A stretch of 64,000 bases of DNA from Lachnoclostridium sp. Marseille-P6806. GTDB taxonomy: Bacteria > Bacillota > Clostridia > Lachnospirales > Lachnospiraceae. The notes beneath the pieces were generated by a model that saw only the letters and a list, made by a program, of their open reading frames with translations, did no database searches and was not told the origin of the DNA. Position numbers and translations under genes: made by a program. Position 1 is the stretch's first letter; each line of letters begins with the position of its first letter. The stretch lies in the NCBI RefSeq assembly GCF_900625025.1, contig NZ_LR130582.1:1-64000 (forward strand), read 5' to 3'. Shown one piece after another: positions 16,985-39,003 of this stretch.

Positions 16985-17131
16985 GTGAAAAATCACGCTG
17001 ATGCAATGATTTGCTCCGTGAGCGAAAAATGCCGTTACGTAGCGGGACGGCATGAGACGCGAAGCGGCTCGCATCTCTGCGCGCCGGCGCAGAGATGTTG
17101 CACACGGCTATTTGTGCCGAAGCCCAAATAG
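16985..17131 (+). other. Possible small ORF inside the repeat (48 codons)
   Basis: A GTG at 16985 is preceded by GGAGG with 5 nt spacing and opens 48 codons ending in TAG at 17129-17131. The predicted peptide begins VKNHADAMICSVSEK and contains five cysteines. It lies entirely within the hairpin-rich repeat upstream of trpS and could be a chance frame or a leader peptide; it contains no Trp codon. I do not call it a gene. Confidence 0.2.
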
Positions 17132-17290
17132 CCCCTGATCGCAGCCGTAAAACCGCCTGCGCGGACCTTTCAGCAAACGAAAAATGCTGTCAGGTAAAGG
17201 GACGGCATGAGCCGCAAAGCGGCTCGGCACCCTGCGCGCCGGCGCTGGGTGATTGCGGCGCGTGCCTCGCACAAAGTGCTTCGGCATGAG
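16985..17290 (+). repeat. Hairpin-rich intergenic repeat, longest copy (upstream of trpS)
   Basis: The 337-bp gap between the radical SAM gene and trpS is filled by palindromic modules. In order: arms AAATCA/TGATTT (16990-17012); a unit of three hairpins (17023-17102); a hairpin with arms GGCTATTTG/CAAATAGCC and a 10-nt loop TGCCGAAGCC (17106-17133); a second copy of the three-hairpin unit (17178-17256); and a terminal module GTGCCTCGCACAAAGTGC followed by TTCGGCATGAGG. The GAGG of the terminal module is the probable ribosome binding site of trpS. Related copies lie at 26008-26044, 30636-30773 (minus) and 38890-38994. No T-box-like sequence was seen. Confidence 0.8.
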
Positions 17291-17297
17291 GATTACC

Positions 17298-18404
17298 ATG
17301 GCAGAAAAAATTATTCTTACCGGAGACCGTCCGACGGGCCGTCTCCATATCGGGCACTATGTTGGTTCGCTCCGCCGGAGAGTCGAGCTGCAGAATTCGG
17401 GCGGCTTTGATGAAATCTATATCATGATCGCCGACGCGCAGGCTCTCACGGACAATTTCGATGATCCCGACAAGGTGCGCGAGAACATCATGGAGGTGGC
17501 GCTGGACTATCTTTCCGCCGGCATCGACCCCGAAAAGACGCATATTCTGATTCAGTCCCAGATCCCGGAGCTGACGGAGCTGACGTTCTACTACTCGGAT
17601 CTTGTGACGGTTTCGCGTCTTCAGAGAAATCCCACGGTCAAGACGGAGCTCGGCATGCGGGGCTTCGGCGAGAGCATTCCGGTCGGCTTTTTCACCTATC
17701 CCATCAGTCAGGCGGCGGATATCACGGCGTTCAAGGCGACCACGGTTCCGGCCGGAGAGGATCAGCAGCCGATGATCGAGCAGACGCGCGAGATCGTCCG
17801 GAAGTTCAACTCGGTCTATCACACGGAAACGCTCGTCGAGCCGGAGATCCTGCTCCCGCAGAACGAGGCCTGTATGCGCCTGCCCGGAACGGACGGAAGG
17901 GAGAAGATGAGCAAGTCCCTCGGGAACGGCATCTATCTCTCCGATCCCGCGGAGGAGGTGAAGAAAAAGGTCATGAGCATGTTCACCGACCCCGATCATC
18001 TGCGCGTGGAGGACCCGGGGAAGATCGAGGGCAATACGGTGTTTACCTATCTTGACGCCTTTGCGAGGGCGGAGCATTTCGCGGAGTATGCGCCGGATTA
18101 CACCGATCTGGAAGAGATGAAAGCACATTACCGGAAAGGCGGGCTCGGCGACGTAAAGGTCAAAAAATTCCTGAACAATGTGCTGCAGGAGACGCTGGAG
18201 CCGATCCGCAGCCGCAGGGCGCGCTTTGAAAAAGATATTCCCTATGTGTATGAGGTTCTGAAAAAGGGGACGGAGGCCGCGGAAAAGAAAGCGGCAGGGA
18301 CGCTGGAAGAGGTAAAGCGGGCCATGCGCATCAATTATTTCGAGGACACGGAATGGCTGGAAACGCAGATAAGGAAGTTTTCCGGACAGGACGGCCGCGC
18401 GTGA
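17298..18404 (+). CDS. trpS: Tryptophanyl-tRNA synthetase
   Basis: TrpRS charges tRNA-Trp with tryptophan in the cytoplasm. This protein (about 368 residues, slightly longer than the usual 330-340) has the class I motifs: the HIGH-type RLHIGHYVG near residue 15 and KMSKS as [22 protein letters not shown] at the N-terminus and [15 protein letters not shown] are typical of TrpRS. The start at 17298 is chosen because family similarity begins there. Its ribosome binding site (GAGG) is supplied by the end of the repeat element directly upstream. It is followed 32 bp later by a UDP-sugar pyrophosphorylase gene, so the two may be co-transcribed. Confidence 0.95.
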
Positions 18405-18436
18405 GCGCTCTGAAAAAAACAGTAAGGAGTATGGAT

Positions 18437-19663
18437 ATGACATATCAGGAGGCAGAAAAAAAACTGGCAGAATACGGGCAGACGCATGTCCTGCGCTACT
18501 ATGACGAGCTTGACGGCAGAGAACGGAAGGAGCTTCTGGAGCAGATCGGCGGCACGGACTTTTCGGTGCTCCGCTATATCGGGAATCCGGGCGAGGCGCT
18601 GAACCGGGGAAAAATCTCTCCCCTCGGCGCGATGGAGCTTCCGGAGATCGAGGCGCACCGGGAGGAATATACGGAGCGCGGGCTCGCGGCGATCCGCGGG
18701 GGAAAGCTTGGTGCGGTGCTTCTTGCCGGTGGCATGGGCACGCGGCTCGGCTCCGATGATCCGAAGTGCATGTATGATATCGGCCTTACGAAGACCGTCT
18801 ATATCATGGAGAGGCTGATTGTCAATCTGCAGGAGGTCGTGCGGCAGGCCGGCGTTTCGATTCCGCTGTTCATCATGACCTCGGAGAAGAACGATGCGAA
18901 GACGCGCGCGTTCATGAAAGAGCATGATTATTTCGGCTATGACAGCGGGCAGGTCTGGTTCTTCCGGCAGGAGATGGCGCCGGCGGCGGACCGGAACGGA
19001 AAGGTTTTCATGGAGGGAAAGGGGCGCATCGCGACCTCTCCCAACGGAAACGGCGGCTGGTACGTCTCGATGGCGCGGACCGGGATCCTCGATGTGGTGC
19101 ATGAACGCGGGATCGAGTGGCTCAACATCTTTGCGGTCGACAACGTTCTGCAGAGGATTGCGGATCCCTGCTTCCTCGGCGCGACGATGGCGAGCGGCGC
19201 GGCGTCGGGAGCCAAGGTGGTGCGCAAGGTGACGCCGGATGAAAAGGTGGGAGCAATCTGTCTTGAGGACGGGAAGCCATCGATCGTTGAATATTACGAT
19301 ATGACGCCGGAGCTGATGGATGCGAAAAACGAGAAAGGGGAGCCCGCCTATAATTTTGGCGTGATCCTGAATTATCTTTTCCGCGAAAAGGATCTGGCGC
19401 GCATCATGGACGAGAAGCTGCCGATGCACGTGGTGAACAAGAAGATCCCTCATATCGATGAAAACGGCGTTCCGGTCAGCCCGGAGGAACCGAACGGCTT
19501 CAAATTCGAGCAGCTTGTACTCGATATGATTCATGAGCTGGACAGCTGCCTGCCCTATGAGGTCGTCCGGGAGCATGAATTCGCGCCGATCAAGAACCGG
19601 AAGGGTGTCGACTCGGTCGAGTCGGCCAGGGACCTCTGCCGTCGGAACGGGATCGAGCTGTAA
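18437..19663 (+). CDS. UDP-sugar (UDPGP/UAP-type) pyrophosphorylase
   Basis: This 408-residue enzyme belongs to the UDPGP family (UDP-N-acetylglucosamine/UDP-glucose pyrophosphorylases of the eukaryote-like type), which makes a UDP-sugar and PPi from UTP and a sugar 1-phosphate. The nucleotide motif LLAGGMGTRLGSDDPK lies near residue 96, and FAVDNVLQRIADP and KFEQLVLDMI are family features. It is distinct from the GalU/RmlA-type enzymes. AAGGAG at 18423-18428 favours ATG 18437 (8 nt) over ATG 18431 (2 nt). Next to galT-galE and the glycosyltransferases it could supply UDP-GlcNAc, UDP-GalNAc or UDP-hexose. The exact sugar is not decided by sequence. Confidence 0.85.
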   Translation: MTYQEAEKKLAEYGQTHVLRYYDELDGRERKELLEQIGGTDFSVLRYIGNPGEALNRGKISPLGAMELPEIEAHREEYTERGLAAIRGGKLGAVLLAGGMGTRLGSDDPKCMYDIGLTKTVYIMERLIVNLQEVVRQAGVSIPLFIMTSEKNDAKTRAFMKEHDYFGYDSGQVWFFRQEMAPAADRNGKVFMEGKGRIATSPNGNGGWYVSMARTGILDVVHERGIEWLNIFAVDNVLQRIADPCFLGATMASGAASGAKVVRKVTPDEKVGAICLEDGKPSIVEYYDMTPELMDAKNEKGEPAYNFGVILNYLFREKDLARIMDEKLPMHVVNKKIPHIDENGVPVSPEEPNGFKFEQLVLDMIHELDSCLPYEVVREHEFAPIKNRKGVDSVESARDLCRRNGIEL

Positions 19664-19716
19664 GCAGGCAATCAGATCAGGAAGCAGACGCAGGCGCCCC
19701 GGCGGATGACGGACGG

Positions 19717-20655
19717 TCAGCGGCTTTTCTCCCGGCTCCGGTATTCTCCCGGCGAGAGGTTCATCATTTTCCGGAACGCCTTGGAAAAATAGAGAGGACT
19801 CTGAAAGCCGACGGAGTTGGAGATCGCGCTCACGGAGAGCCCGGTTTCCGTGAGGAGGAGACAGGCCCGGCGGATGCGGAACGCGTCGAGATAACGCTTC
19901 GGCGACTGCCCGAGAGCCGCTATGAACTGTCGGTAGAGGGTGCTGCGGCTGACGCCGGCATAGGCGGCGACCGATTCAATCGAAATATTGTAGGCAAAAT
20001 GCGAGTCAATGTAGGAGCAGGCGGTTCTTACATTGGCTCGTTCCGCGTTTTCCTCGGGGGAGGAAGACGCGGGGCGCATGAGAAGAGACAGCGCGAGGCA
20101 GAGGCGTCCGGTCATTTCGACGGAGCTGCAAAAAGAGTTGCCGAATGCTTCGCTGATCTCCCGGAGGCAGCGCGAGAGCTCGCCGCCGTACGGGACGCGC
20201 CGCAGAACGGGGCGCTCCGGTGTAAATTCCGTGGCATCGAGCATGGAGGCGGCATCCGCTCCGGCAAAGCCGACCCACTGGTATTCCCATGGATCTTCCC
20301 CGTCGGCGCGGTACAGGATTTCCGTGTCCGGGCGGACGAGAAAGAGGTCGCCCGCGGACAATGCAAAGCGAAGCTCCGCACTTTTCCCCGCCGGGCCCGC
20401 CGTCTGCGCTCCGCCGGCTTTCTTTTCCGCAGGCGTTCCGGAGTCCGCTCCGTCCCGACGGTTTGCCTCCGCGCGGCGGATCCGGTATTCGCCCTTTCCG
20501 GACAGGACATAGTGGATCAGATAATGGTCGCGCACGCCGGGGCCCCACTGATAGCCGGGCGTGCATTTCTGCTGTCCCACATTATAGACGGAAAGAGAGA
20601 CGAGAGAGCGGCGGGATACCTTATGCGACTGCTTGTAGCCGGCGCTGTGCGTCAT
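19717..20655 (-). CDS. AraC family transcriptional regulator
   Basis: This regulator of about 312 residues has an N-terminal AraC-type cupin sensing domain and a C-terminal pair of helix-turn-helix motifs (SIESVAAYAGVSRSTLYRQF and VSAISNSVGFQSPLYFSKAF). It ends with the usual LSPGEYR. A Gly/Ala/Arg-rich insertion of about 35 residues interrupts the cupin near residues 60-95. The ATG at 20655 has TGAGG 6 nt upstream; a longer frame to 20694 is less likely. It is divergent from galT-galE, so control of galactose metabolism is likely but is inferred from position only. It ends 53 bp from the convergent pyrophosphorylase gene. Confidence 0.88.
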   Translation of the reverse strand: MTHSAGYKQSHKVSRRSLVSLSVYNVGQQKCTPGYQWGPGVRDHYLIHYVLSGKGEYRIRRAEANRRDGADSGTPAEKKAGGAQTAGPAGKSAELRFALSAGDLFLVRPDTEILYRADGEDPWEYQWVGFAGADAASMLDATEFTPERPVLRRVPYGGELSRCLREISEAFGNSFCSSVEMTGRLCLALSLLMRPASSSPEENAERANVRTACSYIDSHFAYNISIESVAAYAGVSRSTLYRQFIAALGQSPKRYLDAFRIRRACLLLTETGLSVSAISNSVGFQSPLYFSKAFRKMMNLSPGEYRSREKSR

Positions 20656-20721
20656 GGCGGACCTCACTTTCGCGGATGTGATTTTCTGCAACAAAATTAC
20701 CGGTGCATGATACTAAATTCC

Positions 20722-20727
20722 ATTGTA
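20722..20727 (-). promoter_or_regulatory. Extended -10 element for the AraC regulator
   Basis: On the minus strand TGC precedes TACAAT, an extended -10 element about 70 nt before the regulator start. No good -35 is visible. No equally clear promoter was found on the plus strand for galT. Confidence 0.35.
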
Positions 20728-20809
20728 GCACGGACGGAAATGCGTGATGATAATGAAAGCGATCATATGCTGTGCATTTCCGAAAGGAATTTCTGAGACG
20801 GAGGATGGA

Positions 20810-22366
20810 ATGAACCAAAAAGACAAGAGTTCTGCGGAGGAGGGCATCCGGGCGCTGGTGGCCTACGGTCTGGGAAAAGGGCTGATCACGGAGGAGGACG
20901 CCGGCTATGCGGCTAATCTCCTGCTGGATGCGCTCTGCTGTGAGCCGCAGGGGGAGTTCAGCGCTGCGGATATCGTGCCGGCGGCGGAGAATGCCCCGGC
21001 GCTGGAGGATATTCTCGATACGCTGCTGTGCGATGCGGCGGCGCGCGGCCTCATCGACGGCGGGCCGGCGAGCCGGGACCTTTTTGATACCCGTCTCATG
21101 TCCTGCCTGTGTCCCCGGCCGGGGGAGGTGGTGCGGCGCTTTTTTGAGCATTACCGGGAGAGTCCTGAGGCGGCCACCGACTACTTCTATAAGCTCAGCC
21201 GCGATTCGGATTATATCCGGGAATACCGCATCCGGAAAGACCGGAAATGGACGTCGCAGACAAAATACGGGACCATTGATATCACGATCAATCTGTCAAA
21301 GCCGGAAAAGGATCCCAAAGCGATTGCAGCCGCGCTCACGAAGAAGCAGAACGCGTATCCGAAGTGCCTGCTCTGCCCCGAGAACGAGGGCTATGCCGGG
21401 CGGCTGGATCATCCGGCGAGGCAGACGCTCCGCCTGATTCCGCTGGAGCTTGGCGGCGAGCGCTGGTACATGCAGTATTCGCCCTACGTCTATTACAACG
21501 AGCACTGCATTGTCCTGTCGAAGAGGCATGCGCCGATGCGGATCGACCGCTCCACGTTCCGCAGGCTCATGGATTTTGTCGCGCTGTTCCCGCACTATAC
21601 CATAGGCTCCAACGCGGATCTTCCGATTGTGGGAGGCTCGATTCTCACGCATGAGCACTTTCAGGGAGGACGCTATGAATTTGCCATGGCGAGGGCGGGG
21701 ATCCGGGAGGAGCTTTGCTTCCGCGGCTTTGAGGATGTGACGGCGGGCATTGTGAACTGGCCGATGTCCGTGATCCGCCTCCGGGGCTCTGCGGATCGGG
21801 TGACGGAGCTTGCGGACCGGATCCTTACCGCATGGCGGGGGTACAGTGACGAGGCGCTGGGGATCCTCGCGTACAGCGGGGACAAGCCGCACAACACGAT
21901 CACGCCCATTGCGCGGCGCAGGGGAGAGCTCTTCGAGCTGGATCTGGTGCTCCGCAACAACCGGACGACGCCGGAGTTCCCTCTGGGAGTTTTTCATCCG
22001 CACGAGGAGCTCCATCATATCAAAAAGGAAAACATCGGCCTCATCGAGGTGATGGGACTGGCGGTGCTCCCGGCGCGTCTTCTTAGCGAGATGGAGCGGC
22101 TCAAGGAGGCGGTCCTTGCAGGCGAGGAAATTTCGGAGATCCCGGAGATCGCGGCCCACGCTGCGTGGTGCCGTGAAATGCTGGACAAGCACCCGGAGCT
22201 CTCTGTGAAAAAGCATTCGGAGGTTTCTTTGGACAAGCGTCTGCTGGACCGCGTCGTCGAGGAGGAGATCGGGCTGGTCTTCCAGAACGTGCTGGAGCAC
22301 TGCGGCGTGTACAAGGACAGCGAGGAGGGGCGCGCGGGCTTCCGGCGCTTCACAAATCGTGTATAA
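20810..22366 (+). CDS. galT: Galactose-1-phosphate uridylyltransferase, Firmicutes type
   Basis: GalT exchanges UMP between UDP-glucose and galactose 1-phosphate in the Leloir pathway. This protein is of the longer Firmicutes class (518 residues, about 500 usual) and differs from the short E. coli type. It has CLLCPENEGYAGR, the active-site region SILTHEHFQGGRYEFAM and a C-terminal FHPHEELHHIKKENIGLIEVMG. GGAGG 5 nt before ATG 20810 fixes the start; an in-frame ATG at 20744 lies in the promoter region. galE follows 24 bp later. The divergent AraC gene may control it. Confidence 0.93.
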   Translation: MNQKDKSSAEEGIRALVAYGLGKGLITEEDAGYAANLLLDALCCEPQGEFSAADIVPAAENAPALEDILDTLLCDAAARGLIDGGPASRDLFDTRLMSCLCPRPGEVVRRFFEHYRESPEAATDYFYKLSRDSDYIREYRIRKDRKWTSQTKYGTIDITINLSKPEKDPKAIAAALTKKQNAYPKCLLCPENEGYAGRLDHPARQTLRLIPLELGGERWYMQYSPYVYYNEHCIVLSKRHAPMRIDRSTFRRLMDFVALFPHYTIGSNADLPIVGGSILTHEHFQGGRYEFAMARAGIREELCFRGFEDVTAGIVNWPMSVIRLRGSADRVTELADRILTAWRGYSDEALGILAYSGDKPHNTITPIARRRGELFELDLVLRNNRTTPEFPLGVFHPHEELHHIKKENIGLIEVMGLAVLPARLLSEMERLKEAVLAGEEISEIPEIAAHAAWCREMLDKHPELSVKKHSEVSLDKRLLDRVVEEEIGLVFQNVLEHCGVYKDSEEGRAGFRRFTNRV

Positions 22367-22390
22367 TGAGCAAAGGAAAGGAGCAGAGAG

Positions 22391-23673: not shown

Positions 23674-23710
23674 GCGGCTCTTTGGCGGCTCTTCTCCGTG
23701 TCCGGTTTCC

Positions 23711-23909: not shown

Positions 23910-24013
23910 GATGTGTAGAGTAGGTATCGCGCGTAAAGTGCCATGAGTACGGGATGTTGACCATGGACGAAGGCCGGATGGCCGCGATGCGGTGCCGCTT
24001 CCGCTACTACATC
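23910..24013 (+). promoter_or_regulatory. Tetrahydrofolate (THF-I) riboswitch
   Basis: The stretch matches the folT/THF riboswitch pattern as I know it: a closing stem made by GATGTGTAG (23910-23918) and CTACTACATC (24004-24013), GTAGGTATCGCG with AAGTG after it, GGGATGTTG in the middle, CGAAGG, and GGTGCCGCTTCCGCTAC at the 3' side. A 7-bp hairpin (CCGAAGA/TCTTCGG, 24013-24032) follows, then a GAGGAGG ribosome binding site at 24050-24056. Folate binding should change access to that site. The downstream gene is a folate-type ECF S component, which fits. Confidence 0.85.
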
Positions 24014-24062
24014 CGAAGACTGTCCTCTTCGGTGCAGCAGCAACGCGTCGAGGAGGAAAAGC

Positions 24063-26007: not shown

Positions 26008-26044
26008 TTGGCGCGTGCCTCGCACAATACACTTCGGCATGAGG
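26008..26044 (+). repeat. Hairpin repeat, terminal module only (upstream of ABC exporter)
   Basis: This is a short copy of the intergenic repeat, with GGCGCGTGCCTCGCACAA and ACTTCGGCATGAGG. As in the trpS copy, its GAGG is the probable ribosome binding site, 7 nt before the next ATG at 26052. The GTGC arm of the small inner hairpin is changed to ACAC here. Confidence 0.75.
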
Positions 26045-26051: not shown

Positions 26052-27932
26052 ATGAGACGACTTCTGAAATATTTGAAGGGATATGAGAAAGAGACGGTTC
26101 TTGCGCCGTCGTTCAAGATGCTGGAGGCATTCTTTGATCTTCTGGTGCCGCTGGTCATCGCGCGGATGATCGACGTCGGGCTCCCGGGACGCAGAGGCTA
26201 TCTTATAGGAGAATTTTTTCTGCTGCTGCTCCTTGCCGCGGTGGGACTTGCCTGCAGCGTCACCGCGCAATTTTTCGCGGCAAAGGTCAGCGTAGGCTTT
26301 GCGGCGCGCCTCCGGCAGGATCTCTTCGACCATGTGCAGAGCCTGTCCGGCGCGGCGCTGGACAAGCTGGGGAGCGGCACGTTAATTACGCGGATGACGA
26401 GCGATGTGAATCAGGTGCAGAACGGGCTCAATATGACGCTCCGCCTCCTGCTCCGAAGTCCGTTCATCGTATTCGGCTCGATGATCATGGCGTTTACCAT
26501 TCACGGCCGGAGCGGGCTCATTTTTGCGGCCGCCATCGCCGCGCTCAGCGTGGTGGTGTACGGCATCATGTTTGTCAGTATTCCGCTGTTTTCGCGGGCG
26601 CAGGCGGCGCTCGACCGCGTGCTCGGCGCGGCGCGCGAAAACCTGACCGGCGTGCGGGTGATCCGCGCGTTCTGCCGGGAGGAGGATGAGATTCGGGCTT
26701 TTGACGCGAAGAACGAGGCGCTGACCCGGATGAATCTGCTTGTGGGGCGCCTATCGGCGCTGATGAATCCTGTCACCTATGTGATGGTCAACGCGGCCGC
26801 CGTGGTGCTGATCCGGACCGGGGCCGTCGAGGTGAACAGCGGCGGCATGGGGCAGGGAGAGCTGGTTGCGCTCTATAACTACATGGCGCAGATGATCGTG
26901 GAGCTCATCAAGCTCGCCTCTCTCATCATCACCATCAACCGGGCCATCGCCTGCGCCGGACGGGTCTCGTCGGTGCTGGCGGCGGAGCCGGGAATGGAAT
27001 TTCCGGCCTCGGAATTTTCATCCGGAGAATTTTCACCCGGAGAATTTTCGACCGGAGAATTTTCATCCGCGGAATTTCCTAGCACGGAAATTCGGTCCGC
27101 AGAGGTTCTTCCCGCGGGAGAGGCGGCTGAGGCGGCGGAGGGGGCGGCATCTCCGGCAGCCCGCACGTCCGGAGTGGAAGAACCGGCGGTCCGTTTCCGG
27201 AACGTCACGTTTTCCTATCAGGGGGCCGGCGCCCCGGCGCTCACGGATATCAGCTTTGAGGCAGGGCGCGGGGAGACCGTAGGCATCATCGGCGGAACCG
27301 GGAGCGGCAAGTCCACGCTGGTGCAGCTCATTCCCCGCTTCTATGATGTGACGGAGGGAGCGGTCGAGCTGGGCGGAAAAGATGTCCGCCGCTGCGGAAA
27401 GAAAGAGCTCCGCTCGCGCATCGGTCTTGTCCCGCAGAAAGCCGTTCTCTTTAAGGGAAGCATCCGTGAAAACCTGCGCTGGGCGGATCCGGACGCCCCG
27501 GACAGCGCGCTCCGGTCGGCGCTTAAGACGGCGCAGGCGCTGGATTTTGTGGAGAGCCGGGAGGGAGGGCTGGACAGTCTCATCGAGCAGAGCGGACGGA
27601 ATCTTTCCGGAGGGCAGAGGCAGAGACTTACGATTGCCCGGGCCCTCGTCGGGCAGCCGGACATCCTGATTTTGGACGACAGCGCGAGCGCTCTGGACTA
27701 TGCCACTGATGCGCGTCTCCGGCAGGCTCTGAAAGAGCTCCCCGGAGAGATGACGGTGTTTCTTGTCTCGCAGAGAACGGCCTCGCTCCGCGGCGCGGAT
27801 CAGATTCTTGTTCTGGACGACGGGCGGCTCACGGGACGAGGAACGCATGAGGAGCTGATGCAGAGCTGCCCGGTCTATCAGGAGATTCATTATTCACAGT
27901 TTCCGGAGGAGCGTCCGGAGTCCGGAATATAA
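26052..27932 (+). CDS. Heterodimeric ABC exporter, subunit with degenerate ATPase site
   Basis: This 626-residue protein has an N-terminal six-helix membrane domain and a C-terminal ATPase domain (Walker A GGTGSGKST, signature NLSGGQRQR). Walker B ends in LILDDSASALD, with Asp instead of the catalytic Glu, and the H-loop reads VSQRTAS, with Gln instead of His. These changes mark the degenerate partner of a heterodimeric exporter; the next gene supplies the intact site. A pentapeptide repeat (residues about 316-350) lies between the two domains. The start and ribosome binding site directly follow a copy of the hairpin repeat. The substrate is unknown (drug, lipid or peptide). Confidence 0.9.
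   Translation: MRRLLKYLKGYEKETVLAPSFKMLEAFFDLLVPLVIARMIDVGLPGRRGYLIGEFFLLLLLAAVGLACSVTAQFFAAKVSVGFAARLRQDLFDHVQSLSGAALDKLGSGTLITRMTSDVNQVQNGLNMTLRLLLRSPFIVFGSMIMAFTIHGRSGLIFAAAIAALSVVVYGIMFVSIPLFSRAQAALDRVLGAARENLTGVRVIRAFCREEDEIRAFDAKNEALTRMNLLVGRLSALMNPVTYVMVNAAAVVLIRTGAVEVNSGGMGQGELVALYNYMAQMIVELIKLASLIITINRAIACAGRVSSVLAAEPGMEFPASEFSSGEFSPGEFSTGEFSSAEFPSTEIRSAEVLPAGEAAEAAEGAASPAARTSGVEEPAVRFRNVTFSYQGAGAPALTDISFEAGRGETVGIIGGTGSGKSTLVQLIPRFYDVTEGAVELGGKDVRRCGKKELRSRIGLVPQKAVLFKGSIRENLRWADPDAPDSALRSALKTAQALDFVESREGGLDSLIEQSGRNLSGGQRQRLTIARALVGQPDILILDDSASALDYATDARLRQALKELPGEMTVFLVSQRTASLRGADQILVLDDGRLTGRGTHEELMQSCPVYQEIHYSQFPEERPESGI
26997..27101 (+). repeat. In-frame 15-bp tandem repeat in the ABC linker
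   Basis: Seven 15-bp units begin with GAATTT or GAAATT, starting at 26997, 27012, 27027, 27042, 27057, 27072 and 27087. The three central units are nearly identical, and the outer ones have diverged. They encode a pentapeptide repeat E-F-S-x-G/A in the linker between the membrane and ATPase domains. The unit length keeps the frame if the number of copies changes. Confidence 0.85.
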
Positions 27933-29727: not shown

Positions 29728-30635
29728 TTGCCCTCCGGGTCAGGAGACGGGATCAGAAGACGGAGCGGGGAGCGCTGGAAGCGCAGGCGGAGGGTATGCA
29801 GGACCGTGCGGAGGAGCCCCTGCCGGCGAAAGAGCATGAGGACGAGGAGAAGAGCCAGTCCCGAGACGCTGCACATGCCCGAAACCGATACGTTCCACAG
29901 CATGCCGCCGGCGTAGCCTGCCCCCGCGTTGATGCTGCTGAAAACGGCAGTGAGGAGGAGTGCCGCAGAAAGACGCTTTGTGACCATGCAGGCACAGGCG
30001 GCCGGGGCGGCGAACATGGATATGACAAGGATGGAGCCCACACTGTCAAAGGCGAGCACGCAGGTGAGCGCGGTGAGGAGCATCAGCACGCCGTGAAGCG
30101 GGCCGGTCCGTATGCCCGTGAGCTTTGCAAATTCCGGGTCAAAGGTGCTGATCTTCAGAGGGCGGTAGGCGGACAGGATAAAGCCGAGGTTGACGGCGAG
30201 CATGAGAAGCATGCGCAGCATGGCCCGCGGGATGCCGAATACCCGGATAAACGGGGCAAAGAGCGGATTGCCCATGAGAACCATATCCACATCGAGATGC
30301 GCGTTCCGGAAGTATTTTGTGATGATAATGACGGCGAGTGAGAAAAACAGGGGGAATACGACGCCCAGCGCATCGCCCGGGGCGACGAGCCCGCTCTTTT
30401 CGAGCAGCTCGACAAGGGCGACGGTGAGAATGCCGAACAGCGCCGCGCCGAGCACAAGGGCAGGACTATCCAGCGTCCCCGCGAGCATGAAAGCGAGGAC
30501 GATCCCGAGAAGAATCGAATGTGACAGCGCGTCCGCGATCATCGAGGCGCGGCGCAGGACGAGAAAAGGGCCGAGCACGCCGCAGGCCAGCGCGGTGGCA
30601 ATCAATGTCCAGAGAACTGAGAGCAAAGTAATCAC
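29697..30635 (-). CDS. Metal ABC transporter permease, second subunit
   Basis: This 312-residue permease is of the ZnuB/TroCD/MntB family for Zn2+, Mn2+ or Fe2+ import. It has eight or nine hydrophobic segments and family motifs such as RRASMIADALSHSILLGIV and FDPEFAKLTGI. The C-terminus has a basic tail of about 50 residues. The start is GTG at 30635, and the preceding GGCAGG belongs to the end of a repeat copy. It is the last gene of a four-gene importer operon reading leftward from 33473. Its 3' end overlaps the convergent ABC exporter gene. Confidence 0.88.
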   Translation of the reverse strand: MITLLSVLWTLIATALACGVLGPFLVLRRASMIADALSHSILLGIVLAFMLAGTLDSPALVLGAALFGILTVALVELLEKSGLVAPGDALGVVFPLFFSLAVIIITKYFRNAHLDVDMVLMGNPLFAPFIRVFGIPRAMLRMLLMLAVNLGFILSAYRPLKISTFDPEFAKLTGIRTGPLHGVLMLLTALTCVLAFDSVGSILVISMFAAPAACACMVTKRLSAALLLTAVFSSINAGAGYAGGMLWNVSVSGMCSVSGLALLLVLMLFRRQGLLRTVLHTLRLRFQRSPLRLLIPSPDPEGNQPVRTNWEL

Positions 30636-30773
30636 CCTGCCGAAGCACTTTGTGCGAGGCGCGCGCCGCAGGCGTTTTCGGCGTCTGCGGCTGCGATCAA
30701 AGGCAATTTGGGCTTCGGCACAAATTGCTGTACAAAAAATCAGCGCATCGGCGTGATTTTTTGCACGATCTCC
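30636..30773 (-). repeat. Hairpin repeat between two metal permease genes
   Basis: This minus-strand copy of the intergenic repeat has the same order of modules as the trpS copy. An AAAAAATCA/TGATTTTTT hairpin comes first, then a hairpin with arms GCAATTTG/CAAATTGC and the loop TGCCGAAGCC, then GATCGCAGCCGC, and the terminal CGCCTCGCACAAAGTGCTTCGGCAGGG. The second hairpin keeps its loop while both arms differ from the trpS copy, which is compensatory change. The first module encodes the last residues and stop of the upstream permease, and the last module sits at the GTG start of the downstream one. Confidence 0.8.
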
Positions 30774-31636
30774 TTTTTGTTCAGATAACGCCGCAGCAGA
30801 CCGCAGCGTCCGAGCAGCATGGACAGGACGGTGACCGTCCCCATGCAGAGAATGATCATTGGTCCGGTGGAAATTCCGCTGACGGCAGTGCTGATGAGAG
30901 TTCCGGCAAAGGAGCTGAGGCCGCTGACGAAGCCTGCGATCCGGAGCACGCTCTTCAGCTTTCTGGAGTGCTGCCCGGCGCAGATGCAGGGGATGATCAG
31001 CAGTGAGGAAATGAGGACGGCCCCCACACTTTTCAGTCCCAGCGCGATGAAAGTAATCATCAGGATCAGCAGCACGGCATCGACCGCAGCCGTCCGGATC
31101 CCGATGGAGGCGGCAAAGCCGCGGTCAAAGATGCTGGCGGAAACCTCCTTGAAAAAGAGCCGCAAAAGTATGCCGGCGAGCGCCGAGGCCGCGGTGATGG
31201 TAAGGACGTCCTCTTTCATCAAAAAGGCGGCGGAGCCGAACAAATAGCTGCGAAGTCCCGCCTGTGTCGCCATGGCATAGGCGGGATGCCCCTGAATGTA
31301 GCTTTTCAGAACCATACCGAGCCCGAAGAAGCCGGTCAGAACGATGGCAAGTGCTGCATCCGGCTCCACCGGGGTAAAGCGGGCGATCAGCTGAATGACC
31401 GCATAGGCCGCGGCGCCGGCAAGCACCGCGCCGGCCATCAGAATAAGGGGGCTTCGCGTATGAAACAGCATGAAGAGCGCCACGATGCCGGCATAGCTTG
31501 CATGTCCTATGGCATCGCCGACAAGCCCCTGTCCCCGGAACACGCTGAAGCATCCGATTAGAGAGGCTGTGACGGCGAGTATGGTCGTTCCGAGGGCGAC
31601 GACCCAGAAATCATAAGACAGAAGAAGATTCAACAT
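30740..31636 (-). CDS. Metal ABC transporter permease, first subunit
   Basis: This 298-residue permease has the same fold and family as the gene after it, so the importer has two different permease subunits, as in Mn/Zn/Fe systems of the TroCD or MtsBC kind. It shows several hydrophobic segments and the typical FRGQGLVGDAIGHASYAGIV near the N-terminus. The last residues (IVQKITPMR) are encoded by the start of a repeat copy, so the element has become part of the gene. It starts 15 bp after the ATPase gene. Confidence 0.88.
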   Translation of the reverse strand: MLNLLLSYDFWVVALGTTILAVTASLIGCFSVFRGQGLVGDAIGHASYAGIVALFMLFHTRSPLILMAGAVLAGAAAYAVIQLIARFTPVEPDAALAIVLTGFFGLGMVLKSYIQGHPAYAMATQAGLRSYLFGSAAFLMKEDVLTITAASALAGILLRLFFKEVSASIFDRGFAASIGIRTAAVDAVLLILMITFIALGLKSVGAVLISSLLIIPCICAGQHSRKLKSVLRIAGFVSGLSSFAGTLISTAVSGISTGPMIILCMGTVTVLSMLLGRCGLLRRYLNKKEIVQKITPMR

Positions 31637-33473: not shown

Positions 33474-33574
33474 AAAATAACCCTCGATTTCTGAATTTTA
33501 TCAGTGGTTGAATATCTGTATGTTGTCTGGTTGGCGCAGCTTTTGGGTCATACGCAGGTATGTAAGACTGCAAG

Positions 33575-33592
33575 TTAGTTATAGCTAACTAA
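33575..33592 (-). promoter_or_regulatory. DtxR/MntR-type operator
   Basis: The inverted repeat TTAGTTA-TAGC-TAACTAA lies one base from the -10 element, where it would cover the transcription start. It resembles DtxR-family boxes (TTAGGTTAGCCTAACCTAA type). Binding of a metal-loaded repressor would shut off the importer when metal is plentiful. No DtxR-family gene lies in the window. Confidence 0.65.
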
Positions 33593-33593
33593 A

Positions 33594-33621
33594 ATTATAG
33601 ACAAAATTGTTCTCCTGTCAA
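33594..33621 (-). promoter_or_regulatory. Promoter of the metal importer operon
   Basis: On the minus strand TTGACA (33616-33621) and TATAAT (33594-33599) are separated by 16 bp, a consensus vegetative promoter. The operator-like palindrome starts right after the -10. The leader to the ATG at 33473 is about 115 nt. Confidence 0.8.
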
Positions 33622-33639
33622 TGGGGATGACGGATTCTG

Positions 33640-33668
33640 TTGCGGAAACGAAAAAAATAGCGGATAAT
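33640..33668 (+). promoter_or_regulatory. Promoter for the CorC-like gene
   Basis: TTGCGG (33640-33645) and GATAAT (33663-33668) are 17 bp apart on the plus strand, about 55 nt before the TTG start of the CorC-like gene. Confidence 0.5.
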
Positions 33669-33721
33669 TTTAGAAAACAGAGCCGGAAACAGCCAGCTGA
33701 ATCAAGGAGAGTGATCTGATT

Positions 33722-35032
33722 TTGGGCCCAGATAGTATAATTCTGATTGTCGTTCTGATTATTCTGATTTATCTTTCATCGTATTTTTCCTCTGCGGAGA
33801 CAGCGCTTATGAGCATCAGCCGTCTGCGTCTGCGCAGCATGGCTGACGACGGAAATGCAAGAGCAAGGCTTGCGCTGGATCTGATCGAAAACCACCAGAC
33901 TAAAATGCTGTCGGCGATTCTGATCGCCAATAACGTCGTAAATCTCTCGGCATCCGCGATCACGTCCGTGATGGCGGCCGGACTGGGAGGGAATCTTGCG
34001 GTGACGCTCGGAACCGGTGTGATTACGCTGCTGATTCTTGTCTTCGGCGAGGTCTCGCCCAAGACGGCCGCTGCGATCCGTCCGGAGCGCTATGTCATGC
34101 GCTGCGTTCGCGTGATCCGCTTTCTGATGGCGGCGCTGACGCCGGTGATCTGGTTCGTCAATTCTCTCTCCCGCGCGGTTCTGTTCCTTATGCGCGTCGA
34201 CCCGAAAACGCGGAGCACCGCCACGACGGAGGAGGAGCTCCGGACGATGGTGGAGGTGTCCCATGAGGACGGGATCATAGAGAACGACGAGAAAGAGATG
34301 ATCAATAACGTGTTCGATCTGACGGATTCGCAGGCGCGGGACATTATGGTTCCCCGCGTGGACGTGGTCTGCGCCGATGTGTCGATGGACTATGAGGCGC
34401 TGCTGCAGCTCTTTTCCGAGGGTAAGTTCACGCGACTGCCGGTTTATGAGGAGACGCCGGATCATATCATAGGGATTCTCAATATGAAGGATCTTCTGCT
34501 TCGGGACAGGAGCCGGAAGTTCAATATCCGGGATTTTGTCCGGGACGCCTTTTTCACGCATGAGTTCAAGAATACCTATGAGCTGTTTCTTGGAATGCGC
34601 AAGGCATCGGTCACGATGTCCATTGTGCTCGATGAATACGGCAGCATGGTCGGCATCATCACCATGGAGGATATACTGGAGGAGATTGTCGGAGAGATCC
34701 GCGACGAATATGATCAGGACGAGCTGAATGAGATCCGGAAAGTGGGGCCCCGGGATTATCTCGTCGAGGCGAGTTGCCGGCTGGACGATCTCAACGATGC
34801 CGTGGGCTGCAATCTCACCAGCGACGATTATGATTCCATCGGCGGTTATCTGATCGGACTCCTCGATCATATCCCGGAGAAAGGGGAGGCGGCAGAGGAC
34901 AGCGCGGGCAATCATATCCGTGCCATCGAGGTCGACGGAAACCGCATTGTGCGGATCCGCCTGACGCTGGCGGACCCGGAGAAGAAAGAGGCGGCTGCGG
35001 AGGAAACGGCGGATGCCCGTCGGGATGCCTGA
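33722..35032 (+). CDS. CorC/HlyC family protein (CNNM-type, DUF21-CBS)
   Basis: This 436-residue protein has an N-terminal DUF21 membrane domain with about four hydrophobic segments, then two CBS domains (residues about 205-325, with REDIMVPRVDV-like ARDIMVPRVDV and VDEYGSMVGIITMED-like VLDEYGSMVGIITMED) and a C-terminal CorC_HlyC domain. The family includes CorC and the CNNM proteins linked to Mg2+ or other cation efflux, although many members are annotated hemolysin. The start appears to be TTG at 33722, with AAGGAG 12 nt upstream; no ATG is in frame nearby. It is divergent from the metal importer operon. Confidence 0.88.
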   Translation: MGPDSIILIVVLIILIYLSSYFSSAETALMSISRLRLRSMADDGNARARLALDLIENHQTKMLSAILIANNVVNLSASAITSVMAAGLGGNLAVTLGTGVITLLILVFGEVSPKTAAAIRPERYVMRCVRVIRFLMAALTPVIWFVNSLSRAVLFLMRVDPKTRSTATTEEELRTMVEVSHEDGIIENDEKEMINNVFDLTDSQARDIMVPRVDVVCADVSMDYEALLQLFSEGKFTRLPVYEETPDHIIGILNMKDLLLRDRSRKFNIRDFVRDAFFTHEFKNTYELFLGMRKASVTMSIVLDEYGSMVGIITMEDILEEIVGEIRDEYDQDELNEIRKVGPRDYLVEASCRLDDLNDAVGCNLTSDDYDSIGGYLIGLLDHIPEKGEAAEDSAGNHIRAIEVDGNRIVRIRLTLADPEKKEAAAEETADARRDA

Positions 35033-35041
35033 GAAAGCGGA

Positions 35042-35584
35042 TCAGCGTGGAGACGGTTCTTTGGCTGCGGATGCCTCTTCCGCAGCGCGGTACCGCTTCG
35101 GGGGCGCTTCCCGGTATCGTCTCGCCTCCTCGATGTAGGAGACACTGTTTGCGGCGGTCTGCGCGCATTCGGCGGGCGTCACCTGACGGACGACCTTTGC
35201 CGGAGCGCCGAGAACGAGGGAGCCGTCCGGGATGACGGTATTCTGGGTGATGAGGGAACCCGCGCCGATGATGCAGTTTTTTCCGATGACGGAGCCGTTC
35301 ATCAGGATGGCGCCCATGCCGACGAGAGAGCCGTCGCCGACGACTGCGCCGTGCACGATGGCGCTGTGCCCGATCGTGACGTTTTGTCCGATTACGACGG
35401 GGAGGCCGCTGTCCATGTGGATCACGGCGTTGTCCTGTATGTTGCTTCCCTCGCCGATGGTCACGGCAGCGCGGTCGGCGCGTATGGTGACGTGGTTCCA
35501 TACGCTGCAGTCCTTTCCGATGGTCACATCTCCCAGAATCGCGGCATCCTCTGCAATGTAAGCGTCCTTATCAATATAGGGCAT
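35042..35584 (-). CDS. Gamma carbonic anhydrase family protein
   Basis: This 180-residue protein is a left-handed beta-helix (hexapeptide repeat) of the gamma carbonic anhydrase/YrdA kind. The three metal-binding histidines are visible in AVIHMD, TIGHSA and IVHGA. Repeats of the form [IV]-G-x-x-x run through residues 8-130. It may hydrate CO2 or have lost that activity, as many family members have. The C-terminal about 35 residues are charged and probably helical. It ends 9 bp from the convergent CorC-like gene. Confidence 0.9.
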   Translation of the reverse strand: MPYIDKDAYIAEDAAILGDVTIGKDCSVWNHVTIRADRAAVTIGEGSNIQDNAVIHMDSGLPVVIGQNVTIGHSAIVHGAVVGDGSLVGMGAILMNGSVIGKNCIIGAGSLITQNTVIPDGSLVLGAPAKVVRQVTPAECAQTAANSVSYIEEARRYREAPPKRYRAAEEASAAKEPSPR

Positions 35585-35665
35585 GGCATTGTCCTTTCAA
35601 AAACTGCGGAAACAGCGGCGGGCCTGCGGGCAGCGGGCGTGGGCGCGTCATGGTTTACACAAAAG

Positions 35666-35671
35666 ATTATA
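35666..35671 (-). promoter_or_regulatory. -10 element for the carbonic anhydrase gene
   Basis: A minus-strand TATAAT lies about 80 nt before the ATG at 35584. A clear -35 was not found. Confidence 0.35.
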
Positions 35672-35735
35672 GCGCATTGTGCCGCCCCTGCGGGCGGTGT
35701 ATGGCAAAAACGGCCGAACGGAGAAAGATAAGCAT

Positions 35736-36143
35736 ATGGCGGACAGACCACAGGGAAGAAAACGGAATATCACCGGTGCGGCCGATACCGAGCTCATCAG
35801 CTCTCTTCTGGAGAGCTTTCTCGGGGGCGGCTACTCCGCCATCAACGGTCTTACCGGGGACAATACGGGGTATTACAGCGCCGGCCGTGAGGTGATGGAG
35901 GACGACGCGCTCACGGAGTATCTCTCGGGCGCGTGGGTCGCGATTGAGGGACAGCCGGTAGCCTATTACCGCATGGACACGACGCAGGACGGGGACTCTG
36001 CGGTCCGCACCGGCTATGTGTCGGCGCTCTTCAACGGCGACCGCGTGAATCTTATGACGCTGGGGGACGGCGCGCTCCGGATCTGCTATCGCTTTACGGA
36101 TATTTATCATAAGGCATACTGGTCCGCGCCGATTATGAAGTGA
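35736..36143 (+). CDS. Protein of unknown function (135 aa)
   Basis: I do not recognise this 135-residue protein. It has no signal peptide or membrane segment. The middle (SSLLESFLGGGYSAINGLTG) and the end (ICYRFTDIYHKAYWSAPIMK) look folded, and Asp/Tyr/Gly are frequent. The ATG at 35736 has GGAGA upstream; a longer frame from 35679 is not needed. Its stop overlaps the GTG start of the acyltransferase gene, so the two are coupled. Confidence 0.65.
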   Translation: MADRPQGRKRNITGAADTELISSLLESFLGGGYSAINGLTGDNTGYYSAGREVMEDDALTEYLSGAWVAIEGQPVAYYRMDTTQDGDSAVRTGYVSALFNGDRVNLMTLGDGALRICYRFTDIYHKAYWSAPIMK

Positions 36144-37351
36144 ACAGGGACAAAAAGACGGCGCGCTCTCATGCCGCCTTGTCTTCCGGCGGCGCGGCGG
36201 CGGGGGAAGCGGCGCGGCGGATCAGAACAATCGACGCTGCGCGGGGACTGGGCATGTTGCTCATTGTGCTGGGGCATGTTCTGCGCGGCGGGTTTCTCCG
36301 GCAGCTCCTGTTTGCTTTCTCCGTGCCGCTCTTTTTTCTTCTGGCAGGCATGACATACCGCAGAGAGAGACGCTGGACGGTGTTTGTGCGGAAACGGCTG
36401 CGTTCCCTCATGCTTCCGTATTTCGCCGCGGCACTGTTCAGTATCGCCGTATTCTCGTTTCTTGGCGCGGCGGCGGGAGCAAGGCTTGGTGTTCCGGAGG
36501 TGCGCACAGGGGTGCTCCGGAGCCTTTTGGGTATGCTCTGGGGAAATTCCCGAAGCGGCATGATGAAGTGGAACGAGCCGCTCTGGTTTCTCCCCTGCCT
36601 GTTTGCTGCGTCTCTCCTCTGTGACCTGTGGGAGCGGGGAATCGTGGGACTGACCGGAGCGATGGCCCTGCCGCGCAGCCGGTTTCCTGTCTCTGCGGGT
36701 GTGCTGTGCCCTTTTCTGCGTCTTGTATTCTGCCTGCTTTCGTTCGCCGCGGCGGAGTGGTACGCCCGTGCCGGTGCGGCGGCGCTGCCGTGGTCTGCGG
36801 AGGCGGCAGTCGGGATGTCCGGTTTTTTTGAGATGGGGATTCTGCTCCGGTCGCTGCGGGCGGAACGCTTTCATGATTTCGATGGACAGGCTGGAGGAGG
36901 AGCGCGGGGGAGAGGGCGCGCCGCAGCGCCGGCACTGCGGACGGTTTTGCCGGTATTTGTGCTCCCGGCAGGGACGGCGGCGCTGATTGTCATCTGCCGC
37001 AGAAACGGCTTTGCACAGGTGCGCGATCTGAATTACGGAAACAGCGCGCTTCTCTTTTATCTCGCTGCGCTCGCGGGGTGTGCCGCGGCGCTGTCTGCGG
37101 CATGGCTGCTGCGCGGCGTCCGATGGCTGGGAGCCGTGGGACGGGACAGCCTTTTCATTCTGCTGTTTCATAAGCTCCCGGTCGTGCTGCTCCAACTTCT
37201 TCCGGGAACCGCGGCGCTCTGGCGGCGCGGGAGCGGGGCAGCCGCACTTCTTGCAGGAGCAGCGGCCGCGGCTGCGGCCATTGCGCTCTGTATGGCTTTT
37301 CATGTGCTTCTTCGCCGCAGTCGTATCGCAAAGTCTCGCTTTCGGTTATAA
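36140..37351 (+). CDS. Membrane acyltransferase, acyltransferase-3 family
   Basis: This 403-residue membrane protein has about ten hydrophobic segments and the N-terminal signature TIDAARGLGMLLIVLGHV with its catalytic-type His, as in the OafA/fucose O-acetylase superfamily. Such proteins move acetyl or other acyl groups onto extracellular sugars or peptides. FLLAGMTYRRER and the later DSLFILLFHKLPVVLL also fit. The start is GTG at 36140 and overlaps the previous stop. A role in modifying the surface glycan made by the cluster at 12.6-16 kb is possible but unproven. Confidence 0.85.
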   Translation: MNRDKKTARSHAALSSGGAAAGEAARRIRTIDAARGLGMLLIVLGHVLRGGFLRQLLFAFSVPLFFLLAGMTYRRERRWTVFVRKRLRSLMLPYFAAALFSIAVFSFLGAAAGARLGVPEVRTGVLRSLLGMLWGNSRSGMMKWNEPLWFLPCLFAASLLCDLWERGIVGLTGAMALPRSRFPVSAGVLCPFLRLVFCLLSFAAAEWYARAGAAALPWSAEAAVGMSGFFEMGILLRSLRAERFHDFDGQAGGGARGRGRAAAPALRTVLPVFVLPAGTAALIVICRRNGFAQVRDLNYGNSALLFYLAALAGCAAALSAAWLLRGVRWLGAVGRDSLFILLFHKLPVVLLQLLPGTAALWRRGSGAAALLAGAAAAAAAIALCMAFHVLLRRSRIAKSRFRL

Positions 37352-37441
37352 TATAAATGTTTGCAGGATTGCGGGAATCGCACAGCGATGGAGCGATCCG
37401 TGTCACACATCGGCAATTACATCACAGGAGAGGAGAAAGCT

Positions 37442-38089
37442 ATGAAATTTGTATGCAGTGTGTGCGGCTATGTGTACGAGGGAGACAAGGCGCCGGAGGT
37501 CTGCCCGCAGTGCGGAAAGACGGGAGTCTTTACCGAACTGAAGGAGAGCGCGGCGAACCCCTATGCCGGAACGAAGACGGAGAAGAATCTTCTGGAGGCG
37601 TTCGCCGGGGAATCTCAGGCGAGAAATAAATATACGTATTTTGCTTCGGTGGCGAAAAAGGCCGGTTACGAGCAGATCGCAGCACTTTTCCTCAAGACGG
37701 CTGACAATGAAAAGGAGCATGCAAAGCTCTGGTTCAAGCATCTCGGGCTTCTCGGGAATACGGAGGAGAATCTTCTTCACGCGGCAGAGGGTGAGAACTA
37801 CGAGTGGACGGATATGTATGACCGCATGGCCAAGGATGCTGAGGAAGAGGGCTTTCATGATCTGGCCGTGCAGTTCCGCGGCGTGGCGGAGGTTGAGAAG
37901 CACCATGAGGAGCGCTACCGCAAGCTCCTTGCCAATGTAAAGAACATGGAAGTATTTAAGAAGAGCGGCGTGACGATCTGGGAGTGTCGGAACTGTGGTC
38001 ACATCGTCGTAGGAACCAGTGCTCCGGAGGTCTGCCCGGTCTGCAAGCATCCGCAGAGCTATTTTGAGGTGCACGCCGAGAACTTCTGA
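37442..38089 (+). CDS. Rubrerythrin, reverse domain order
   Basis: Rubrerythrins reduce hydrogen peroxide in anaerobes. This 215-residue protein has an N-terminal rubredoxin-like knuckle pair ([10 protein letters not shown] and CPQCGK), a central ferritin-like four-helix domain with the di-iron ligands in [19 protein letters not shown] and [10 protein letters not shown], and a second rubredoxin-like site at the C-terminus (CRNCGHIV and CPVCKH). Carrying a rubredoxin site at both ends is less common than one. AGGAGAGGAG precedes the ATG at 37442. Confidence 0.93.
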
Positions 38090-38103
38090 CGCGCGGAATC
38101 ATC

Positions 38104-38484
38104 GTGTCGCAGAGGCTTTTTGCTGCCTGCGGGAGGAGCACAGGGACTGCACCGTCAGCATCCTCTGCATCGCCAGTGTCTTCTGCGCCGCAGGCGGAGG
38201 ACGGCGAGTACACAGGCAGGGATGAGGTCGCAGCGATTCATGATATGCTTGCAGAGAAGCTTGCGCCGCCGTCCTACTACGGCCGCAATCTGGACGCGCT
38301 GTATGACATTCTGACCGATATGACGGAAGTGACGGAGATACGGATCGACAGGCCGTGGCGTGCGCGGCCGGTCGACCGCTATGTGGACCGGGTTCTCCGG
38401 ACAATTTCCGACGCGGCGGAGGAAAACGGGGATATCCGGCTCGTGGAGGCTGCTTATGAGACATCAGGGCGCAATATGGCATGA
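38104..38484 (+). CDS. Barstar-like protein
   Basis: This 126-residue protein has the barstar core in its second half: HDMLAEKLAPPSYYGRNLDALYDIL corresponds to the helix that binds barnase-type RNases. The part before it is unusual. The first hydrophobic strand of barstar is replaced by a Ser/Ala/Pro-rich stretch (GTAPSASSASPVSSAP), so the start may be decayed or the real start may lie further in. The chosen start is GTG at 38104. No barnase-like nuclease gene is nearby. Its end overlaps the next gene by 29 bp. Confidence 0.65.
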   Translation: MSQRLFAACGRSTGTAPSASSASPVSSAPQAEDGEYTGRDEVAAIHDMLAEKLAPPSYYGRNLDALYDILTDMTEVTEIRIDRPWRARPVDRYVDRVLRTISDAAEENGDIRLVEAAYETSGRNMA

Positions 38485-38887
38485 TCGAAAGAGAAACTTT
38501 CTGGGACTTCCGTGGACATTTACGGTCTATGAGCTGGACAGGGACCGCCTTTTCATCGACACGGGGTTTCTCAATTCCCGCGAGGATGAGGTGCGCCTCT
38601 ACCGCATCACGGACGTGAGCCTCACGCGGTCGTTGTGGCAGCGTATCATCGGCACGGGAACCATCCACTGCGATTCCTCGGATCACACGCTGAAAAATTT
38701 TGATATTCTGAATATCAAAAACTCCATGGAAATCAAAGAGAAGCTCTCCGGTATGGTGGAGCAGGCGCGCCGGGAGAATCGCGTCTATACCAGAGAGGAT
38801 ATGCGGGACTACTCGCGTGAGGATGCGGGAGAGGATGACGTTCCGGGCGATTTCGACGGAGACGGCATTCCCGACGATCGGGAGTAG
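38456..38887 (+). CDS. PH-domain protein with acidic tail
   Basis: This 143-residue protein contains a bacterial PH domain (bPH_2 type): TVYELDRDRLFIDTGFL, VRLYRITDVSLTRSLWQRI and SMEIKEKLSGMVEQ are typical. There is no membrane segment. The C-terminus is acidic and ends in DFDGDGIPDDRE, which matches the DxDxDGxxDxxE calcium-loop pattern. GGAGG 7 nt upstream supports ATG 38456, which lies inside the barstar-like gene. The function is unknown. Confidence 0.75.
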   Translation: MRHQGAIWHDRKRNFLGLPWTFTVYELDRDRLFIDTGFLNSREDEVRLYRITDVSLTRSLWQRIIGTGTIHCDSSDHTLKNFDILNIKNSMEIKEKLSGMVEQARRENRVYTREDMRDYSREDAGEDDVPGDFDGDGIPDDRE

Positions 38888-38889
38888 AT

Positions 38890-38994
38890 TTACACGGCTA
38901 TTTGTGCCGAAGCCCAAATAGCCCATGATCGCAGCCGCAAAACCGCCTGCGCGCTTTTGTGGCGCGTGCCTCGCTAAAAAATGCTTCGGCATGG
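38890..38994 (+). repeat. Hairpin repeat upstream of queT
   Basis: This copy of the intergenic repeat carries the hairpin GGCTATTTG-TGCCGAAGCC-CAAATAGCC (38896-38923), identical to the trpS copy, then GATCGCAGCCGCAAAACC, and the terminal module GGCGCGTGCCTCGC with TGCTTCGGCATGGGG. The final GGGG is placed as the ribosome binding site of the ATG at 39004. Confidence 0.8.
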
Positions 38995-39003
38995 GGAATT
39001 TTT

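Follow-up and report, generated by a model that had tools for sequence, protein, structure and literature searches.

A mobile repeat family with a conserved fold, usually located between Shine-Dalgarno sequences and start codons in Lachnoclostridium sp. Marseille-P6806

Palindromes of the REP/RAYT type and those derived from IS200/IS605 consist of hairpin DNA with a fixed polarity and do not produce long duplications. REP/RAYT elements are marked by a GTAG adjoining the hairpin, and BOX elements by boxA, boxB and boxC sequences. In another kind of system, leader riboswitches with a pseudoknot close to the Shine-Dalgarno sequence (SD), competing pairings are found just upstream of the SD. The BOX elements of Streptococcus pneumoniae have, according to their published description, terminal inverted repeats and target-site duplications, and are overrepresented between convergent genes (PMC3049150). 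Here, we describe a family of repeats noticed in a window of 64,000 nucleotides (nt) of Lachnoclostridium sp. Marseille-P6806 (NZ_LR130582.1, positions 1-64,000). Small bacterial repeats are known mainly from intergenic DNA at large, whereas this element remodels the regions in which the translation of many genes begins.

In gene orientation, the element is made of four hairpins, P1-P2-P3-P4, followed by an SD and then by the start codon. Its usual position is between an SD and a start, in a fixed orientation, and an older SD is commonly found just upstream of it, a point missing from the first-pass annotation of the window. It is most probably a non-autonomous mobile repeat with a conserved fold, which inserts one way between the SD of a gene and its start and carries its own SD. 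Insertion would take place in one orientation, directly 3' of the gene's SD and within a few bases before the start codon. Since the 3' end of the element bears an SD, initiation at the host gene would remain possible, downstream of a newly added structured leader.

Family, placement and fold

The host genome (G000), which is Lachnospiraceae-like judging from the relatives of its pyrB, contains roughly 100 copies of the element, those of the window among them. When as many as 3 mismatches are tolerated, the 3' motif matches 154 times in this genome, and the reversed control 9 times. BLAST with the copy upstream of queT resulted in at least 49 matches (E<=10; the best 40 of 145 candidates were scored). 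A covariance model built on 27 own copies, R1, gave 124 matches at E<=10 and 78 at E<1e-4, one of the latter being the antisense echo of another; one long copy may yield two matches. The stretches fetched from the host contain 129 motifs with at most 1 mismatch, beside which the 5' arm of P4 was found 100 times with up to 4 substitutions (loose arm) and 87 times with up to 2 (strict arm). As the search motifs contain the SD, solo 5' parts of the element are under-sampled (e.g., L015, which lacks the 3' end). Rfam gave no relevant match above the gathering threshold in the window and 14 loci, the weak AS-pc01 matches on copies reaching 29-34 bits for a threshold of 79. Exact matching of three patterns found none in viral contigs, and BLAST with the queT copy found no match in plasmid and phage records. 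We found no published description of such a repeat among the open-licence papers searched. A Clostridiales-1 RNA adjoins a copy at L048 (1689-1856, minus strand).

P1 reads GTGTGAAAAATCA...TGATTTTTCACAC. P2 reads GGCTATTTG-TGCCGAAGCC-CAAATAGCC and is followed by a linker bearing GATCGCA. The arms of P3 are, for example, GCCGCAAAA/TTTTGCGGC, and P4 is TGCCTCGCAC-AAA-GTGCTTCGGCA. The SD at the 3' end has the forms GGTGATT, GGAGGATT, GGGGATT, and GAGGATT. The usual size is about 125-150 bp, and more when extra modules are present. The lengths of the copies from P1 to the 3' end peak around 124 and 210 nt, with two copies at 295-296 and ten at 47-80 nt, as expected from a module of about 86 nt present 0, 1, or 2 times and from internal deletions in some copies.

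An open reading frame (ORF) of at least 60 codons begins within 30 nt downstream of 87 of the 100 own copies with the loose P4 arm, and of 76 of the 87 with the strict one. For positions drawn at random from these loci (up to 3000), the share preceding such an ORF is 32%. In 45 copies, the longest ORF starts 9-10 nt past GGCATG; in 18, it starts with a GTG lying within the SD. When both ends of the copy were available (57 copies, i.e., 59 minus two dropped), an ORF was found on the gene side in 53 and on the opposite side in 18. Upstream of P1, an SD core 4-mer is present within 14 nt in 65% of 46 own copies (the 57 minus 11 tandem-like ones), compared with 15-24% in intervals lying farther upstream. 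In other genomes, 38 copies were tried; P1 was unresolved in 3, and 28 of the other 35 have the 4-mer within 16 nt. Because an older SD commonly lies just upstream of P1 and the element ends in its own, the usual order is SD-element-SD-start. Each of the ten own host genes examined matches Pfam, through domains unrelated to one another, and the N-terminal cover is below expectation in L028 alone. The host genes include trpS, a carbamoyltransferase-PyrI pair, an EF-G-like GTPase, and asparagine synthase.

The fold is conserved through compensatory changes while the sequence differs between species. This was quantified on an alignment, A3, of 42 rows from 16 genomes (the host and 15 others of the genus), from which we dropped near duplicates (L049, L053), a copy with an unlike 5' part (L057), one with an insert (L064), a short one (L068), one with a run of N (L066), and three from genomes already represented (L071, L075, L220). 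Both-sided changes occur in 40 of the 48 pairs tested, and 334 cells are double-changed vs 108 in shuffles. The fraction of paired cells is 83.5%, compared with 40-46% on sliding, a control in which the structure is favoured by having been drawn from one of the rows; the rows were chosen by hand. The loop of P2 and X, the strand directly before the SD, are paired at 91%, and 4 of the 8 pairs are double-changed. The two parts of P4 are paired at 83.5% and 90.5%, and 3 of its 9 pairs show double changes; the outermost two have gaps in 26 rows, and the one after them fails in 15. Since the P2-loop/X pairing and P4 use the same strand beside the SD, they are mutually exclusive, and both are kept.

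Mobility, relatives and the copies of the window

The family is mobile, because sister species have empty sites at matching flanks. For ten sites, the two flanks were fused into one query, which was searched in four genomes; G021 provided six of the sites, its sister G035 two, and G036 two. Six of the ten are continuous, i.e., free of the element, in sister species, with 92-99% identity for L281, L264, L072, L071, and L262, and 85% for L263. Of the five clean empty sites, four have an SD at the insertion point (catGGAGGCATACATGG, gGGAGGAAAAATG, AGGAGGTGACGATATGG, TATGGGAGAAAAGTATG). For example, the empty catGGAGGCATACATGG corresponds to the filled catGGAGGCA-[element]-ACATGG. At trpS, sister species have the homologous end of the upstream gene, the SD, and trpS without the element; in the host, GGAGGATA is followed by about 305 element bases and then by the start of trpS. 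A second covariance model, R2 (43 rows), recognises the element at the start of trpS in the host and in 0 of 29 other trpS loci. Near pyrB, R2 matches strongly twice in the host; among 80 named relatives, it matches weakly four times (E 1e-4 to 0.03), three times on the opposite strand and once, in a cut-down form, downstream of pyrB (L081). When 33 host proteins of other genomes were compared with 87 own host proteins, 4 matched, one of them convincingly (L071/L195; 412 residues aligned at 44% identity). Some element sites are shared between near sisters.

The search for relatives by DNA similarity matched 4 of 61 genomes, and R1 (E<=0.01) matched 23 of the 41 genomes of the genus, in both cases including the host. 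The largest numbers of R1 matches were found in G015 (49), G064 (44), and G014 (26), and 18 genomes had none. Two matches, L061 (G001) and L062 (G032), were excluded as they look, by eye, like another structured repeat, unlike the copies at gene starts. The relatives' copies have the same order of hairpins and a different sequence, special to each species; the 3' motif is expanded in the host alone (137 vs 1 for the control, and at most 20 in any other genome). R2 was used beyond the genus with strict filters and few candidates scored per genome. It matched 11 of 295 genomes of the order, from 7 genera and two families (host included), and the host alone among 398 genomes sampled across the phylum. 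Within the genus, 32 of 46 copies are at the start of an ORF, two of them via a start 27-28 nt off. The 18 loci returned in the order-wide search included five skipped for their layout and one left unexamined; the 12 copies evaluated, from nine other genomes, all end at an ORF start, five of them in the second family. Hence, related copies rebuild start regions also in other genera and in one other family of the order.

Copies from G008, G010, G018, G027, and G062 constitute a group with different placement and a weaker link to long ORFs: 6 of 15 are at ORF starts, compared with 26 of 31 in the remaining genomes of the genus. The copies of this group (L051, L058, L067, L074, L226, L230, and others) have 3' ends like GGAAAG-AGTG, and some are in tandem. 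In the region upstream of trpS in G026 (L345), visual inspection shows another kind of hairpin, whose loop is GCTGATGC, between two SD-like sequences. It is possibly a diverged member of the family; neither R1 nor R2 matches there. The first-pass annotation had suggested searching the genome and its relatives with a covariance model, and looking for copies just before starts in gene orientation and for empty sites in relatives. All of these were found, and the family is neither limited to the window nor randomly placed, nor does its covariation fail in a larger alignment.

The window contains the four copies reported in that annotation. It had described them as sharing ordered modules, which needs correction for the one at 26008-26044, consisting of P4 and the SD alone. 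The copy at trpS (16983-17287, plus strand), recovered by BLAST and by the covariance model, is a long form composed of P1 with module M1, P2, P3 with module M2, and P4. The native SD of trpS (GGAGG, 16975-16979) is upstream of the insertion; in the sisters G021 and G035, an SD is directly before trpS. M1, in the loop of P1 (17006-17099), and M2, in P3 (17166-17252), have approximate limits and resemble each other (57 of 68 aligned bases identical). The P2 hairpin with loop TGCCGAAGCC spans 17106-17133 and P4 spans 17263-17286. The 3' strand of P4 is X (17276-17286), which holds the complement of the P2 loop; the pairing was counted on other copies and is seen in L012 and L048. The SD ending the element (GAGG, 17288-17291) precedes the ATG of trpS at 17298. 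The solo P4 module (26016-26039, plus strand; model E 9.4) lacks P1-P3 and lies before an ABC transporter gene (ATG at 26052).

The copy before an ABC-3 permease gene (30636-30766, minus strand), found with the covariance model, is complete, with P1 at 30766-30730, P2 at 30728-30703, X at 30648-30638, and the SD at 30637-30632. The start of the gene is a TTG at 30626 or a GTG at 30635, within the SD. The upstream ABC-3 permease gene (30740-31636, minus strand) terminates within P1 of this copy, which begins at 30766, and its C-terminus therefore seems to be a new one, derived from the insertion. The copy at queT (38889-38999, plus strand; BLAST and covariance model) is truncated in 5', with P1 reduced to its 3' arm, P2 at 38896-38923, P3 at about 38934-38962, P4 at 38967-38991, the SD at 38993-38997, and the ATG at 39004. 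The P2 hairpin TTTGTGCCGAAGCCCAAA has 3 mismatch-free occurrences in the window; with 3 mismatches permitted, 3 matches were reached in 0 of 100 shuffles. Its arms are GGCTATTTG/CAAATAGCC in the trpS and queT copies and GCAATTTG/CAAATTGC in the permease copy. The first-pass annotation was thus right that the arms changed with pairing kept. It was also right that a TTCGGCA-like end precedes the four starts, which lie 11-12 nt past it, and that the targets are functionally unrelated: Pfam confirms a W/Y-class tRNA synthetase, an ABC transporter, an ABC-3 permease, and QueT. Elsewhere in the window, a tetrahydrofolate (THF) riboswitch aptamer (23914-24008, plus strand) scores over the gathering threshold.

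Competing explanations

Several observations weigh against a mobile repeat that inserts between the SD and the start. Roughly a third of the own copies have no SD core directly upstream, and the use of SD-containing motifs to find copies introduces a bias towards those at starts. Among the five clean empty sites, L262 lacks an SD, and the SD at L281 (the TATGGGAGAAAAGTATG site) seems to belong to the 3' end of an older copy. A sister retains a 3' remnant at L232, L266 carries an insert in both genomes (217 nt in G021, 79 nt in G035), and no counterpart of the two G036 sites was found in G025 (67% complete). The G008/G010/G018/G027/G062 group keeps the fold, yet only 6 of 15 copies precede a long ORF, and the upstream SD core is missing in 5 of the 7 tested. 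Hence, placement at the SD is not due to the fold alone. Finally, no mobilising enzyme was found.

The bias of the motifs and the group that is not tied to starts would also be expected from untargeted insertion, where copies land widely and mainly those between the SD and the start are retained. We consider this unlikely, since other intergenic spots should be at least as tolerable and yet such a large majority of the own copies is at ORF starts. We infer that sites are chosen by recognition of the SD region, not by selection alone. The element thereby raises the question of how a mobile repeat locates SDs. One speculative answer, which we regard as doubtful, is a new class of mobile elements targeting the translation initiation region. 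The element's own structured RNA or single-stranded fold would choose SDs, possibly via an RNA intermediate or guide, and the restored 3' SD would make insertions before essential genes tolerated, the element doubling as a spreadable translational switch.

The strong covariation, including the P2-loop/X pairing in competition with P4, and the fixed position beside the SD could instead reflect a conserved cis-regulatory RNA, i.e., a riboswitch-like or protein-binding leader of a large regulon whose copies are present because they are regulatory. This seems improbable considering that association with orthologous genes is not observed (a single convincing case among the 33 proteins), that sisters have empty sites, that the sequence is special to each species, that the targets are unrelated, and that there is no relevant Rfam match. 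Nor is the SD clearly hidden on folding. In pseudoknot-free predictions, its mean unpaired probability is 0.39 in the element (47 copies), 0.34 with shuffled letters, and 0.47 in an imitation of the empty site made by joining the flanks (36 copies). Since the SD is not more hidden than in shuffled sequences, simple hiding is not supported. The suggestion in the first-pass annotation of a translation-control RNA that might conceal the ribosome binding site would agree with the two competing pairings kept beside the SD; concealment is not shown by the pseudoknot-free folding. Its other suggestion, a mobile palindromic element, is correct concerning mobility (empty sites, species-special sequence, mostly different host genes), and the labels REP and MITE are not supported. 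Within a mobile repeat, we infer that the leader tunes translation, with the P2 loop and the 5' arm of P4 competing for X next to the SD. The family provides a natural set in which one structured leader stands before about 100 unrelated genes.

The ends of the element were searched for traces of its mechanism. In 51 own copies, the longest run shared by the flanks averages 3.39 nt, vs 3.27 when permuted (p 0.21), giving no sign of a consistent target-site duplication; in 46 own copies, shared runs of at least 7 nt are in slight excess, with 4 vs 1.6 expected (p 0.05). Duplications of about 5 bases are possible in some G021 copies, judged by eye. Of the two copies tested for terminal inverted repeats, L048 has none, and L012 has a 9-nt subterminal pair that requires an SD of the GGTGATT form. 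It is formed by AAAAATCAC in the 5' arm of P1 (1476-1484) and the complementary GTGATTTTT in the new SD region (1605-1613). This may be an anti-SD pairing of GGTGATT-type copies; a G021 copy tested lacks such a pair. The fixed orientation, the absence of a consistent duplication, and a bulged base mostly kept in P3 (by eye) would suit a single-strand element of the REP/RAYT or IS200/IS605 type, whose Y1 transposase would recognise the hairpins and attach them on the 3' side of a purine-rich target. This is also improbable, since Y1_Tnp (E<=1e-5) has 0 matches in five genomes with many copies, G000 (96.7% complete), G064, G021, G031, and G035, and Y1 is present in ten or so genomes without model matches. 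RVT_1 has 1 match in G000. A reverse transcriptase was rejected as the mobiliser because G064, G021, G014, and G035 carry the element and have no RVT_1 match.

Also improbable is a leader-peptide device in which the upstream SD drives translation from a GTG/ATG of P1 across the element into the gene start: although 22 of 28 short own copies (which are non-independent) keep a start codon where P1 has its second GTG, in a frame that runs past the 3' end in 17 of the 28 (for the other two frames, 40 open codons are reached in 0 and 2), the lengths of these copies modulo 3 (12, 10, and 6 copies) give no single frame and, by eye, the frame closes inside P1 in G021 copies and G015 copies lack an in-frame ATG/GTG/TTG there.

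Comparison with known systems

The element belongs among small mobile repeats, as a variant for which we found no earlier description in the papers searched. Like riboswitches with an SD-proximal pseudoknot, it has rival pairings directly 5' of the SD, but it is mobile, has many unrelated targets, and lacks an Rfam match. It shares hairpins, polarity, and the absence of long duplications with REP/RAYT and IS200/IS605-derived palindromes, from which it differs by a host without a Y1 transposase match, by its four hairpins, and by its 3' SD. Like miniature inverted-repeat transposable elements (MITEs), it is short, gene-free, folded, and amplified in particular species (in part after PMC3049150), and it is present or absent at otherwise identical sites (6 of 10 empty). 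In contrast to MITEs, it has neither a consistent target duplication nor terminal inverted repeats across the family, and it keeps one orientation relative to genes.

BOX repeats appear to be the closest in style. Compared with their published description (PMC3049150), the element differs from them in sitting at the SD and start, without consistent inverted ends or duplications. It resembles them in being a small modular interspersed repeat with more than 100 copies per genome, variable inner modules, an RNA fold, and relatives in another species.

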